A DNA stretch of 6,052 nt from Candidatus Heimdallarchaeota archaeon (GTDB taxonomy: Archaea; Asgardarchaeota; Heimdallarchaeia; Heimdallarchaeales; Heimdallarchaeaceae): positions 1 to 6,052 of the forward strand of contig JAEOTK010000264.1 in NCBI GenBank assembly GCA_016839875.1. Direction: 5' to 3'. The notes below the pieces were generated by a model. It made no database searches, was not told the DNA's origin, and worked only from the letters and a program-made list of their open reading frames with translations. Each line of letters opens with the position of its first letter. Position 1 is the first letter of the stretch. The position numbers and the translations under genes were made by a program. Of the stretch, positions 1 to 6,052 are shown one piece after another.

Positions 1-2073
1 ACTCTTTCTGGTATAGCTACTTCTACACATCTCTATAATGCAATCATTCCTAATATGGATACTTTGTTTGGAAAATCACTAATGATTGTAGAACCTGATA
101 TTCTTCATGAATTTGCTGACTTGTTTCTTCAAACCTCGAGATGGATGGATGAGGAAAAATACCTATTTCTCTGTCAAAAAATAGCCGATGCATTCTACAA
201 TATCAATGATTTTGAAAAATCTCTTGAAATGATGGATAAAGCATACCAGTATATCAAGGATAAGAAATACAACAAGATTGAACCGTTAGTTCGTTTCAAA
301 AAAGCTGAATTCTCAAGTTTGATTTTCTATTTCATGACATTTGATCCTTTATTTGACCCTTACGAAATAAAGTCAGTCCAAATATTAGAAGATAATTCAC
401 AAAAAGATTTGCACCTTCAGGTTCTAAGCGCTCCAATTAATAGTTTTCCTGCAACATCTTACTCCCAATTTTTACGAATAATTGAAAAAGCAAATAAAAG
501 ATATACTAAGGAAAACTCCATGAAAATTCAAGGAATAGAAGAAGCAGAGGAAAGATGCTTTTTTGTTCTTGATTTACAATTAGCAGAAGAGAATTTACAG
601 CTCCTTATGAAAGAGGATTTTCAGTTAGAAAGAAAGGAAACACAAACACTCCATTCTACCATATCCCCATATTACTCCATAATAGGTTTACTTTCAGATA
701 AAGAATCAGAAGATAAAACAATAGAAGAAATAGCAGATATTGAATCAATATTACTCAAAATACAAAGAGCTATCAATTGTCCAGCTTCAAGAGCTACCAT
801 ATATCTTCCAGAAACATCTTTACAGCTAAATCTTTTCAAGTATTATCTTGAACAAAGCGGTTTTAACGATATTAAAACAAAGATTTTGGACACTGCCAGA
901 TCTCTTCATAAGAAGTATGATTTTGCAAAGAATTCAGACTTTTTACAGATATTTAATAGTGACCCAATAACTATTTTCGATCTATCTTTAAGAGATTTAG
1001 AACAATTATCTCCTCTTACTGGCTTAATCAGGCAAGCATATGGAATAGAAATAGAAAACAGCATACTTTCACAATTTCTAAAGGAAACTATGAAATTATT
1101 CCTAAAACGAAGCGATGCTAGATTCTGGAGAGACTTCTATTATCAATATTCTTGGCTTCAAATCCGCGGAGAATTCACAGCAGTAATGAATGAAGATTCT
1201 GCAAAAAGAGGTATTTTATGTGAGCAATTAATAACAATAAGTGAAAAATTAGATGAGAGTGAAAAAATACTTGAGAGCAATTATTTCAAGGCCTATCTTT
1301 ACCTAGTAGATAAGAATAAGGATTTTGAGACCCAAGTTCAAAAACTCACTTCTTTATCTGAAGAATATGGAAATCAGAAATATTCTATAGCTGCTATGTT
1401 AATGGAGAACCTGATTCAAGAACAAATGTTAGATGATGAAGAATTCCTTCGTGAAACAACAGATCTGTTTTGCTTGTTATGTGAGTTCAAAGACTGGAAT
1501 GTTGCATTAGAATTGTTTATTGTGCTTCTAGATAAAATTCAAAGCATAAAAACAATGTTTGAAATATGCAAGAAAAGAGAAGTAAAAGATACAGGAATAT
1601 TACTTTATCTACATTTATCGAGATATTTGACAGATCTTGAAAATTACAGTTTAGCTTCATCGATGTTGATGTGGATAACAAATGTTCTAAATGAACGAAA
1701 AGAGAAGTTCTTTCTACCTTTGCATACGTGGAATTACTTGTTTGTAAAGACAAATTTGCTATTATATGAGATTCTTGAGAATATTCCAAAAGAAGAACAG
1801 AAGAAAAATAACATTCAGAAGGATAGTATTGTTAAGAATTTACTTGAAAATTCTGAATGGATTGATGATCCATTACAACTTGCTCAATTAATAAAAGATC
1901 AAATCGATATATTTCTTGTTAAGAAAGAACTTTCATCAGCAGAAAAGCATTATCACTGGATTGAACAAATTTTATATTACTATTGGGATTTGTTTACAGC
2001 CTCTGAAAACCAATTATTATTGCAAGAGATACAATCAGCAAAAAAGCGAATTGAAAGCCATCATTTCACATAA
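1..2073 (+). CDS. Large helical TPR-like repeat protein, 5' end missing
   Basis: I do not recognise a named family. The frame is open from base 1 with no stop before the ATG at 55. The 18 codons upstream read as ordinary protein and no Shine-Dalgarno site precedes that ATG, so it is probably internal and the gene starts outside the window. At least 690 residues are visible. The protein looks almost entirely alpha-helical, with no signal peptide and no clear membrane segment. Four stretches resemble the second helix of TPR-type hairpins: near bases 205-255 (NDFEKSLEMMDKAYQYI), 1489-1545 (KDWNVALELFIVLLDKI), 1639-1692 (ENYSLASSMLMWITNVL) and 1921-1977 (KELSSAEKHYHWIEQIL). Each has an aromatic or Leu, then Ala/Ser, then spaced hydrophobics. 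I see no catalytic motif. An alpha-solenoid scaffold or adaptor in the cytoplasm is the best inference. A 262-bp gap separates it from the next gene, so co-transcription is uncertain. Confidence 0.8.
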   Translation, partial: TLSGIATSTHLYNAIIPNMDTLFGKSLMIVEPDILHEFADLFLQTSRWMDEEKYLFLCQKIADAFYNINDFEKSLEMMDKAYQYIKDKKYNKIEPLVRFKKAEFSSLIFYFMTFDPLFDPYEIKSVQILEDNSQKDLHLQVLSAPINSFPATSYSQFLRIIEKANKRYTKENSMKIQGIEEAEERCFFVLDLQLAEENLQLLMKEDFQLERKETQTLHSTISPYYSIIGLLSDKESEDKTIEEIADIESILLKIQRAINCPASRATIYLPETSLQLNLFKYYLEQSGFNDIKTKILDTARSLHKKYDFAKNSDFLQIFNSDPITIFDLSLRDLEQLSPLTGLIRQAYGIEIENSILSQFLKETMKLFLKRSDARFWRDFYYQYSWLQIRGEFTAVMNEDSAKRGILCEQLITISEKLDESEKILESNYFKAYLYLVDKNKDFETQVQKLTSLSEEYGNQKYSIAAMLMENLIQEQMLDDEEFLRETTDLFCLLCEFKDWNVALELFIVLLDKIQSIKTMFEICKKREVKDTGILLYLHLSRYLTDLENYSLASSMLMWITNVLNERKEKFFLPLHTWNYLFVKTNLLLYEILENIPKEEQKKNNIQKDSIVKNLLENSEWIDDPLQLAQLIKDQIDIFLVKKELSSAEKHYHWIEQILYYYWDLFTASENQLLLQEIQSAKKRIESHHFT

Positions 2074-2335: not shown

Positions 2336-4978
2336 ATGTCTTCAGAACATGAAATCGCGATAATAACGGTGGGTTACAAGTCAAGTCCGTTTATTGAACA
2401 AATCATAGACAAAGAAAACATACCCTTTTCAATTGTTGCAAATAATGGGAGTGACTTCCAGATTCACCATGCTGATCCAACTAAAATACTGAACTATAGT
2501 TTAGAATTTACCAACATAATTGAGACTATAGCTAAGAAAAGTATGGATTCTTTAGCGGTTTTTGAGACATTAGGGCAGTTCTTTGAATTTTACAATCCAT
2601 TGCATCTCTCAACTTTGAATTACTTAATATCTAAATATGCTACAAATATCAAACCAGAAAATACTAATTATTTAGAAGCCTGGAAGCAAATAACAAACGC
2701 TATCTTTGATGAAGAATTTATATTTCCACTGTTTGAAGAAACACGAATTTTTCACATTAGAGAAGGAGATGTTGAGTTACCTGTAAGGCAATTCTTGATT
2801 TCAAATAAATTAGAATTACTCAAAAATAATTCAAAAAACAACAATAAATCAAAAGAACAACTGATTGAAGAAATAACAGGTATAATTGATGTAGATAAAG
2901 TTGAAAAAATGAAATTATGCGGTGAAACAGCTAAGAAGATTGTTTCAGCCTCAGCAGTTATTATTGTTCCAACTGATATGTCTTCATTATTTATTATGTT
3001 CAAATCAGAGAGTTTCAAAGAAAATCTACAAAAAACAGATGGAAAAATAGCGTTAATATCACCATTGTGGCCAGGAAATGAAGTCTCAAAGTTGGAAGAA
3101 TCAATCTTGATTAAAACAGAGTTCGAACCAAATCTCCTTAATTTAGTAGATTTAATCAAAGAATCTGTTGATGTTCTAATAATTGATACCAAGGATAGTG
3201 ATCTCGTACCTCAATTAAGAGAAGCTGGCGTAACTGTGCTTGTTGAAGACTTAAATCCTGAAACTCAACAAACAGAAGAATTTCTTGATACTGTTCTAAA
3301 AACAATGGACTTATCTTTAGAGACAGTTCTTGTAGAACCCAAAAAAGCAATAGAAGGACTAGGTGAAAAATTAGTTAATCTTTTCAGGGTTAGAGAACCT
3401 AAGAAAGAAGAAACTGCTGAAAGTTCAGAACAGGTTGCTCTGGAAGAAAGCAGAGAAATTATAGATACACTATTTGAAGAAGAATTAAAAACAGAAGAAG
3501 TTGTTTCTGAAAATATCACTCCAGTTCTGGAAGAAACTTCTGATGTTACTGAAGAGGAATCATTAACTGATGAATTTGAAATGGAAGTTATTGATACAGA
3601 AGAAGAAGTGCTTCCAATACCTGCTCCACCTGCAAAAACAGGTTCTATAGAAAGCGAAATTCTATCTACAAAAGCAGAAGGTCAATTTCTACTTCCTGGA
3701 ATAGAACAGATAACTCAATTAGAATTAGAAGAACTTGATTCCTTAGATGTAGACGAACACATTATTACTTCAATTATAGATAGAGCAATTTCATCATCAA
3801 ATGTAACAGGATTGGAAGTTGTTTTTTCGGATTTACTTTCATTACAAAACAATCCTCTCTTGATTGATAAGATCTACCAAATGATTATGAAAAGATTGAT
3901 GAAATTAAGAGAAACAAATCCAGAAGAAAAAATAGCAGTAATGGTTACTTATCTATCTGCTCATAAACCAGATTATTACACTGAAAAACTTGAGGATTTA
4001 TTAGAGGATACTATAACTACAAAAGATGAGGAAGAATTCTATAAGAACCTCAGAACAGCTGCTTTGATTGTAAAAAGCTCTTTGATTATTGCTGGCGATG
4101 TAATAGAGAATTTTCTAAGCAGCTATATGCAAAAAGAAGATGTGTATTTAGAGAATAGAATTCGAAGAATCATAAATGTTTTTGCAATAACTGATCCAGA
4201 TTTACAATTACTAGTTAATCGAATATTATTAAAAATCTACAAAGATGAACTCAAGAAAGAAGAAGTTAATGAAGCAGTTATTGACAAAATCATCTCAATA
4301 AATTCAACATTTGATGCCATAACCGTTGGAATATCGTTAATATTGGATGGTACAGAAGCATTATTGAATTCATTTTCTGAAAAAATACTTCAATTGAATC
4401 ACTGTGATTCTTTCAAGAAAATTGTAGCAGATATTGTTATTGAGTATAACGAAGGAAGATTTGACGATCTGGTTAAAGCTTTACACGGAAGAAGTATTCC
4501 TGAAAGCGTTGAATATGAAATGATGAAAAAGAAATATGAAAACAGTCTTTCTAAAGTTGGGTCAATTCCTTTAGAGATTTTTGCAGAACGTGTAGGTCAT
4601 CCTATTGAAAAAGCTGAAAAGATAATCTATGATATGATTCTCAAAGAAGAAATCCAAGCAAGAATAGAGCTTGTGAGTGGAAGATTATACATTGTAGAAG
4701 AACAGGAAGGTGAAGAGGTTGAAGAGATTGAGGTTAAAGAAGAAGTAGATGAAGAACCACCCAAAAAACCTGCAAAGAAACCTGTAAAGAAACCTTCAGA
4801 GAAGCCTACCAAAAAGCCTACAAAGAAACCTGCAAAGAAACCTGTAAAGAAATCTGTAGAGAAACCTGCTGAAAAACCCGAAAAGAAGGAAGAATTTGTA
4901 TGTCCAGATTGCCAAAAAACTTACAATACTGAACGCGGTCTCAAAATGCATATTTCTAAGAGCCACAAAAAAGACTAG
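2336..4978 (+). CDS. Mosaic protein: degenerate CofD-like domain, PCI-like winged helix, Lys/Pro repeats, C2H2 finger
   Basis: This is an 880-residue protein starting at ATG 2336. Residues 4-325 follow the motif order of CofD, which transfers 2-phospholactate to Fo in coenzyme F420 synthesis. NGSDF (37-41) stands for TGDDF, and HADPTKILNYSLEF (45-58) matches the SPDLDT-YTL stretch. EGDVELPVRQFLI (143-155) matches EGELPFQEYFV, VPTDM (211-215) matches GPSNP, ISPLWPG (241-247) matches the SPI-GG loop, and DVLIIDTKDSDL (279-290) is typical of the C-terminal part. The glycine-rich GGTGGAK loop is absent (TVGYKSS at 11-17), so CofD activity is unlikely. An acidic linker (about 355-454) leads to a helical region (456-724) and a winged helix (739-789) like those ending PCI domains. 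A short acidic stretch, eleven KKPx-type units (810-853) and a C-X2-C-X12-H-X4-H finger (C856, C859, H872, H877) follow. No membrane segment is seen. The role is unknown; a scaffold or nucleic-acid- or protein-binding pseudoenzyme is inferred. Confidence 0.9.
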   Translation: MSSEHEIAIITVGYKSSPFIEQIIDKENIPFSIVANNGSDFQIHHADPTKILNYSLEFTNIIETIAKKSMDSLAVFETLGQFFEFYNPLHLSTLNYLISKYATNIKPENTNYLEAWKQITNAIFDEEFIFPLFEETRIFHIREGDVELPVRQFLISNKLELLKNNSKNNNKSKEQLIEEITGIIDVDKVEKMKLCGETAKKIVSASAVIIVPTDMSSLFIMFKSESFKENLQKTDGKIALISPLWPGNEVSKLEESILIKTEFEPNLLNLVDLIKESVDVLIIDTKDSDLVPQLREAGVTVLVEDLNPETQQTEEFLDTVLKTMDLSLETVLVEPKKAIEGLGEKLVNLFRVREPKKEETAESSEQVALEESREIIDTLFEEELKTEEVVSENITPVLEETSDVTEEESLTDEFEMEVIDTEEEVLPIPAPPAKTGSIESEILSTKAEGQFLLPGIEQITQLELEELDSLDVDEHIITSIIDRAISSSNVTGLEVVFSDLLSLQNNPLLIDKIYQMIMKRLMKLRETNPEEKIAVMVTYLSAHKPDYYTEKLEDLLEDTITTKDEEEFYKNLRTAALIVKSSLIIAGDVIENFLSSYMQKEDVYLENRIRRIINVFAITDPDLQLLVNRILLKIYKDELKKEEVNEAVIDKIISINSTFDAITVGISLILDGTEALLNSFSEKILQLNHCDSFKKIVADIVIEYNEGRFDDLVKALHGRSIPESVEYEMMKKKYENSLSKVGSIPLEIFAERVGHPIEKAEKIIYDMILKEEIQARIELVSGRLYIVEEQEGEEVEEIEVKEEVDEEPPKKPAKKPVKKPSEKPTKKPTKKPAKKPVKKSVEKPAEKPEKKEEFVCPDCQKTYNTERGLKMHISKSHKKD
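4763..4894 (+). repeat. In-frame 12-bp tandem repeats encoding KKPx units
   Basis: Eleven consecutive four-residue units read KKPA, KKPV, KKPS, EKPT, KKPT, KKPA, KKPV, KKSV, EKPA, EKPE and KKEE. At DNA level the 27 bases at 4766-4792 recur exactly at 4826-4852, 60 bp (five units) downstream, which points to past expansion by slippage or unequal exchange. The product is a strongly basic, proline-spaced tail like those of histone H1 and other non-specific nucleic-acid binders. It sits directly between an acidic stretch and the C2H2 finger. Confidence 0.9.
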
Positions 4979-5075: not shown

Positions 5076-6052
5076 ATGCTTATCTGCCTTTTTAAATTGG
5101 AAGATATTGGACCTGCTTTAGTTGAAATGGTGGCTGATCAGAATGTTGAATTTGATGAGACCATTATTGAGAAATTCAGATTTTCAGGTTCTATAACATA
5201 TTCTCTTGTTTTCCAAGGGATGGTTCATTTAGAGGACATGTCTACAGAACTATATGGTCCATTTCCATTTGCTTTCTCTTCTGGTTTTGTTCAATATGCA
5301 TTTTCATTTATTGCGGAAGATAAAACGGTTAAAGATAAACGAATGAAAAAGAAGACACTTGGTTTGGTTCTTATGTTAGTACCAGAAATTGTGTCAAAAA
5401 TTGATGACTTCAGAGAGGAGTTAGCGAAGATTCTACTTTATAAATTTCACAAAATTGATAGGATCAATCAAGTCAATAAACAATTTCTTGGAGATATAAT
5501 TAAATCGTATAATAAGGTTTTAACTGATATATTGAGCACTCAACAAGCAAGTTTACTGTCAGAACAACTCATGGAATTTCTTGAAAAGAAACCTGTACCA
5601 TCAAAGAAAAAGAAACTTACTGATATTGCAGTTATATATACTAAGGAATACACTTCTCTAGTCAAGAACTACTATGCATCATTTCTTACATCTCTCCCTT
5701 ATCAAGAAACATATTATGAAGAATCACAAGCTGTGGTTAAAACAAAGAATTATTCATTTAATTTTCGAAGAGAAGATAAGGCTGATGAAGAATTTTTAAG
5801 TTCTCAAACAGCATTGATTTTTGTTATTGATGTAGGAAATCGAAAATATAAAACAACTTATTCCATATTGTCTAATCTTAAGTCAAAACCAAAGATTGCT
5901 TTAGTTGTTTCTTTACCAGATAATATCGAGAAAGCTAGTCAACAATATGCAAAGTTCTTTACTGGTTTGGAGGGGTATATCAGTGGATTACCTTTCTTCT
6001 CATCTAGTTTTACATCTAATTATGAATTCAAATCTAAGATGTTAGAAGCACT
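5076..6052 (+). CDS. Longin-like plus pseudo-GTPase-like protein, 3' end missing
   Basis: The frame runs from ATG 5076 to the window end without a stop (325 codons plus two bases). The ATG is the first in the frame after an in-frame TAG at 5043. Residues 1-130 predict a strand-strand-helix-three strands-helix order like longin domains: MLICLFKL, GPALVEMVAD, a helix near 28-46, TELYGPFPF, QYAFSFIAED, LGLVLMLVPE, then the helix FREELAKILLYKF. A helical stretch and a basic patch (KKPVPSKKKK, 171-180) follow. Residues 181-325 resemble the small-GTPase fold: IAVIYTKEYTS where strand 1 and the P-loop would be, ALIFVIDVG (247-254) as strand 4, and KIALVVSL (273-280) as strand 5. However, GxxxxGK[ST], DxxG and NKxD are all missing, so nucleotide binding is not expected. 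No signal peptide or membrane helix is seen. An adaptor role, perhaps in membrane-linked or GTPase-related processes, is inferred from the folds only. Confidence 0.8.
   Translation, partial: MLICLFKLEDIGPALVEMVADQNVEFDETIIEKFRFSGSITYSLVFQGMVHLEDMSTELYGPFPFAFSSGFVQYAFSFIAEDKTVKDKRMKKKTLGLVLMLVPEIVSKIDDFREELAKILLYKFHKIDRINQVNKQFLGDIIKSYNKVLTDILSTQQASLLSEQLMEFLEKKPVPSKKKKLTDIAVIYTKEYTSLVKNYYASFLTSLPYQETYYEESQAVVKTKNYSFNFRREDKADEEFLSSQTALIFVIDVGNRKYKTTYSILSNLKSKPKIALVVSLPDNIEKASQQYAKFFTGLEGYISGLPFFSSSFTSNYEFKSKMLEA

Follow-up and report, generated by a model that had tools for sequence, protein, structure and literature searches.

A CofD-like fold fused to a PCI-type scaffold in a conserved protein of Asgard archaea

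Introduction

CofD/FbiA is the 2-phospho-L-lactate (phosphoenolpyruvate) transferase of F420 synthesis (PF01933, TIGR01819). GlmR, a bacterial, stand-alone protein, belongs to the GlmR/YvcK family, which we take to be UPF0052. PCI scaffolds are best known from the eukaryotic proteasome, signalosome and translation-initiation complexes, and Asgard archaea are relatives of eukaryotes. According to PMC7525490 (PubMed Central, PMC), GlmR shows weak homology to CofD, binds uridine diphosphate N-acetylglucosamine (UDP-GlcNAc) and switches its partner with it. Here we describe a gene from a Candidatus Heimdallarchaeota archaeon whose product joins a CofD-like domain to a PCI half; it lies in a 6,052-nucleotide stretch (contig JAEOTK010000264.1), hereafter the window. 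We give about an even chance to the proposal that the CofD-like half of this conserved Asgard protein is a catalytically retired fold, serving as a ligand-binding switch on a PCI-type scaffold.

The protein resembles CofD/FbiA in its complete fold and in the order of its elements, but the fusion family lacks the D45 ligand (0/126 Asp), has lost most of the Gly loop and carries a fused PCI half. The likeness to GlmR/UPF0052 is a fold match only, and GlmR has no PCI domain. As in the PCI subunits of the 26S lid, the COP9 signalosome and eIF3 (PF01399), helical repeats are followed by a winged helix, an architecture that the title of PMC9467303 calls 'winged HEAT'; a term search of that paper returned no mention of archaea. 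Unlike the subunits of these three complexes, the window protein has a CofD domain in front, and there are few other PCI matches per genome. Likeness to the winged helix of UFL1-DDRGK1 is limited to that small domain. Other Asgard proteins with PCI-like domains are mentioned in a work on the endosomal sorting complex required for transport (ESCRT) in Asgard archaea.

Results

The fusion gene and its distribution

The gene runs from the ATG at 2336 to position 4978 of the window (2336..4978, + strand) and encodes 880 amino acids plus a stop; M1 was almost invariant among relatives in a 30-row alignment. All of its parts lie on the + strand. Residues 1–340 (2336..3355) form the CofD-fold domain and are followed by an acidic linker (residues 341–455; 3356..3700), probably disordered, as judged from its sequence and from a predicted local distance difference test (pLDDT) below 50 over residues 348–472. 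Structure models place HEAT-like helical repeats at residues 456–715 (3701..4480), ahead of a PCI winged helix at residues 716–790 (4481..4705).

A search of 5.8 billion proteins, with scoring limited to the 7992 candidates sharing most words, returned 62 rows including the window protein, with identity down to 34%, and a second search with a broader alignment added 49 further rows. Row names, where given, were Heimdallarchaeota, Heimdallarchaeaceae, Hodarchaeales, Hermodarchaeota, Promethearchaeota and a few Thorarchaeota. Loci in named genomes numbered 27, including one in CP084167, a record titled complete genome. Among the 227 genomes of the phylum, 147 matched the broad alignment, mostly via true CofD, and a full-query, single-frame match was found in 40 (41 places); the TAA listed for the fusion of one of them (G034) is its terminal stop. 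Only pieces were seen in 7 further genomes; in six the piece lies at or close to the end of a contig, and the seventh is G047. Both halves lay in one frame at all 20 distant loci fetched, and the fusion protein was single-copy in 8/8 genomes looked at.

That the window is only a 6-kb fragment would suit an assembly or frame artefact. The single-frame architecture recurs, however, in 40/227 genomes, at 20/20 distant loci and in CP084167; assembly error was therefore ruled out, and an artefact of either kind has next to no probability left. The fusion of CofD-like and PCI parts is real, conserved and Asgard-centred. An earlier note made from the letters of the window had claimed an uninterrupted fusion free of assembly error, which many independent Asgard assemblies bear out, and the domain order that it had suggested looking for in other Asgard genomes was found, as CofD-like plus PCI, in these 40. 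The architecture is a new one built from known folds: as the same note had supposed, no paper describing a CofD and PCI combination was found in the open-licence PMC literature, outside which a description may exist.

Two matches carried other labels. A piece with 60% identity (L026, 3040-3519) came from a contig of 3.6 kb that bears the label Bathyarchaeota and may be misbinned, and a weak 48-residue match (L027) was labelled Pirellulales.

The CofD-like half

The CofD fold is complete across the domain, with 300 aligned profile columns and the order of elements kept, and the link to CofD is visible by fold and by profile–profile comparison. TIGR01819 scored 20.7 bits against the window protein, under its curated cut-off of 257.45. 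PF01933 (cut-off 30 bits) was absent from the Pfam listing of this protein at E up to 10 and reached 25.8 and 25.6 bits, again under the cut-off, in relatives P0068 and P0085. PDB sequence searches with the window protein and with the family profile gave chance-level rows only.

The metal ligands of FbiA are D45 and D57, according to PMC7253369. The position of D45 is S39 in the window protein, and the 126 rows with a letter there comprise 44 Ser, 34 Ala, 20 Cys, 16 Leu, 11 Gly, 1 Ile and no Asp. D57 aligns with a gap in the window protein, where some chance of a shifted alignment is left since 63 rows have Asp at the nearby position 47. The Gly loop is reduced to a single Gly, G13, present in 125/125 letters. 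Because the first metal ligand is lost and the profile scores are under their cut-offs, the window protein was rejected as a true CofD, and the CofD-like half most likely does not make F420. A separate frame for true CofD was listed in 30/40 fusion genomes; four more (G032, G037, G039 and G158) had true-CofD matches of E 1e-19 to 1e-22 with the place not listed, G007 had a weak match only, and a search for true CofD gave no match in five of the 40 (G006, G017, G030, G036 and G046).

Other residues of the domain are fully kept (R151 and D214, each 128/128; E57, 127/127) or nearly invariant (D40, 124/126; S217, 126/128; D279, 127/128). Weighted over 17 clusters (50% identity), E57, R151 and D214 stood at 100% identity, against a mean of 0.43 in the CofD-like domain, and E761 of the winged helix was fully conserved as well. 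In the alignment to CofD, R151 falls at the FQE strand and D214 and S217 at the PSNP loop. We read these residues as a putative CofD cleft, kept with another chemistry or ligand.

The half might still be an enzyme of changed chemistry, for instance with another donor or acceptor, which the PCI half brings to its substrate complex. Its complete fold agrees with this, the charged and (near-)invariant E57, R151, D214 and D279 could resemble an altered active site, and Listeria GlmR is called an accessory uridyltransferase in the title of PMC10128056; yet the first CofD/FbiA metal ligand is absent in 126/126 rows and the Gly loop is down to one Gly, and we consider a changed enzyme unlikely. These same losses would be expected of a ligand-free platform for protein binding, in which the conserved residues serve the fold or the contact with the PCI half, and a PRC-like N-terminus does replace the CofD half in some proteins (see below). 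A platform of this kind appears quite improbable, however, given the full weighted identity of E57, R151 and D214 in a domain of much lower mean and the alignment of R151 and D214 to the CofD FQE strand and PSNP loop.

The PCI half

PF01399 exceeded its curated cut-off in the window protein (23.5 vs 22 bits), and the predicted model (pLDDT 82, predicted template modelling score 0.75) consists of helical repeats and then a winged helix. When the PCI half was folded alone, the top Foldseek ranks were chains of the COP9 signalosome, the 26S proteasome and eIF3. HEAT_2 was seen in one relative (L095) at E 0.0014, under its cut-off.

The Foldseek ranks and the PF01399 score would fit membership of an Asgard complex of lid-like, COP9-like or eIF3-like type, functionally related to the eukaryotic PCI complexes. 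Such complexes have several PCI proteins, however, whereas PF01399 matches, counted without exhaustiveness (at most 22 candidates scored per genome, the fusion itself being missed in G034 and G036), numbered 0 or 1 in 24/40 fusion genomes with the fusion included, 2 in 14 and more in 2. Since most fusion genomes showed few other PCI matches in this non-exhaustive count, a lid- or eIF3-like complex becomes less likely; a similar fold, moreover, does not establish function, and we regard membership of such a complex as quite unlikely.

A different Asgard protein of about 790–800 amino acids, with PCI-type hits and a Cys-rich N-terminus, was met at six loci (L084–L088 and L114). The proteins of L084–L088, of about 790 amino acids, gave no match with the profile of the fusion family.

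Modularity of the halves and tails

Downstream of the winged helix, the window protein carries Lys/Pro-rich basic repeats (residues 793–850; 4712..4885, + strand), recognised in the sequence and with pLDDT below 50, and a C2H2 zinc finger (residues 854–877; 4895..4966, + strand). In this finger the Cys2-His2 pattern is present and PF00096 scored 19.9 bits (E 0.001), under its cut-off of 25.2; the finger of relative P0033 passes PF13912 (27.5 vs cut-off 25). The C2H2 pattern was found in 35/131 rows, every one among the first 62; in other relatives the C-terminus is a basic tail or a helix-hairpin-helix, or has no added element. Tail classes, assigned by a rule together with Pfam marks from the protein search, were distributed over a 111-row quick tree as 33 C2H2, 12 Lys-rich, 4 helix-hairpin-helix and 62 none or other. 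These four classes required 6 changes on the tree, compared with 42.5 in shuffles, and all 33 C2H2 rows were confined to one 43-row branch; the tree was used for tail clustering only, given its long deep branches and the program's warning that false joins may occur. The finger was thus rejected as a defining part and is a local addition, incidental to the family core, although the earlier note had counted it as belonging to the architecture.

In five genomes (L092–L095 and L108) the PCI half occurs with a different, PRC-like N-terminus. The short N-terminal domain was tested in two of these five and gave PRC-barrel at E 9e-4, just under the cut-off, in one and none in the other. A sixth PCI-half locus (L091) is cut off ahead of the N-terminal domain, and three loci (L109–L111) hold a shorter relative of the PRC-like/PCI-half kind. 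A second PRC-like/PCI version of about 500 amino acids lies near genes that we take to be aconitase-like. A Lys-rich tail was also seen on the PCI-half relatives of L092–L095 and L108.

Conversely, CofD-like proteins that lack the PCI half were found, in addition to true CofD, in four other genomes (L104–L107) and, less surely, in a fifth (L115), whose protein keeps a GG loop; they measure 325–403 amino acids, L115 included. At L104–L106 the CofD-like gene adjoins one that presumably encodes a stomatin/SPFH-like protein, and in two genomes (L064 and L065) a PCI-less CofD-like gene is one gene away from the fusion gene. The parts are modular, since the PCI half occurs on a PRC-like N-terminus and CofD-like proteins occur without a PCI half. 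Split homologues or missing modules had been taken beforehand as signs of a local fusion or misassembly; the frame proved unsplit in the 40 genomes with a full-length protein, but separate halves do exist in other Asgard genomes.

A proposed switch

The domains, their fusion, their conservation and the loss of the first metal ligand are computed results, from which we infer ligand binding, switching, partners and nucleic-acid contact for the presumably retired CofD fold on its scaffold. The N-terminal fold, its F420-enzyme metal site gone but its own invariant residues kept, would bind some anionic metabolite or nucleotide. The acidic linker would tether it to the HEAT and winged-helix (PCI) scaffold, which may hold a protein or RNA partner, and the ligand state of the CofD fold would alter assembly. 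In some lineages the C2H2, helix-hairpin-helix and Lys-rich tails may add nucleic-acid contact. By analogy with GlmR, sensing would fall to the CofD-like half, and the PCI half would hold the partner; the earlier note's idea of a regulator that links a metabolite-binding fold to a complex is plausible.

A wider proposal, which we consider improbable in its full extent, is that of a metabolite-gated PCI scaffold born in Asgard archaea. A CofD fold from F420 synthesis would have become a sensor that controls how a protein or RNA complex assembles, and PCI scaffolds would have been under metabolite control at a prokaryotic stage, prior to the rise of the eukaryotic lid, COP9 and eIF3 complexes. 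A conserved Asgard protein that couples a PCI scaffold to a repurposed cofactor-enzyme fold offers a testable object for the pre-eukaryotic use of such scaffolds, and provides an archaeal example of a CofD fold that has apparently departed from F420 synthesis.

Gene neighbourhood

The fusion gene is flanked by open reading frames (ORFs) on the same strand, ORF1 upstream (1..2073, +, 5' open) and ORF3 downstream (5076..6050, +, 3' open), neither with a Pfam family above cut-off. Both are conserved neighbours of the fusion in the Heimdall clade: among the window and 21 loci compared with it, 17 showed the ORF1 family and 20 the ORF3 family, and the usual order, contig ends allowing, was ORF1, fusion, a SLOG-like gene (in 10) and ORF3. 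ORF3 was about 90 kb from the fusion in G001, and ORF1 lay on another contig than the fusion in G006 and G019. Strong matches across the phylum were seen in 22/227 genomes for ORF1 and 23/227 for ORF3, with weak extras in 1 and 4 genomes, respectively, and neither profile matched among the frames of loci L053 and later. With profiles unmatched in those loci and present in so few genomes, ORF1 and ORF3 cannot explain the whole family, and function inferred from the neighbours was rejected because these genes have no Pfam family above cut-off and a restricted spread. They are candidate partners in the Heimdall clade, not in other lineages.

A Ras-like GTPase and a tetratricopeptide repeat (TPR) protein were also observed near the fusion in the Heimdall clade (L001–L024). 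Elsewhere, a gene for what we take to be a DUF389-like membrane protein adjoins the fusion or CofD-like gene (L055–L059, L062, L066, L068, L107 and L113); the cluster of this presumed DUF389-like gene contains genes from 17 loci, several of which are overlapping pieces of the same genomes.
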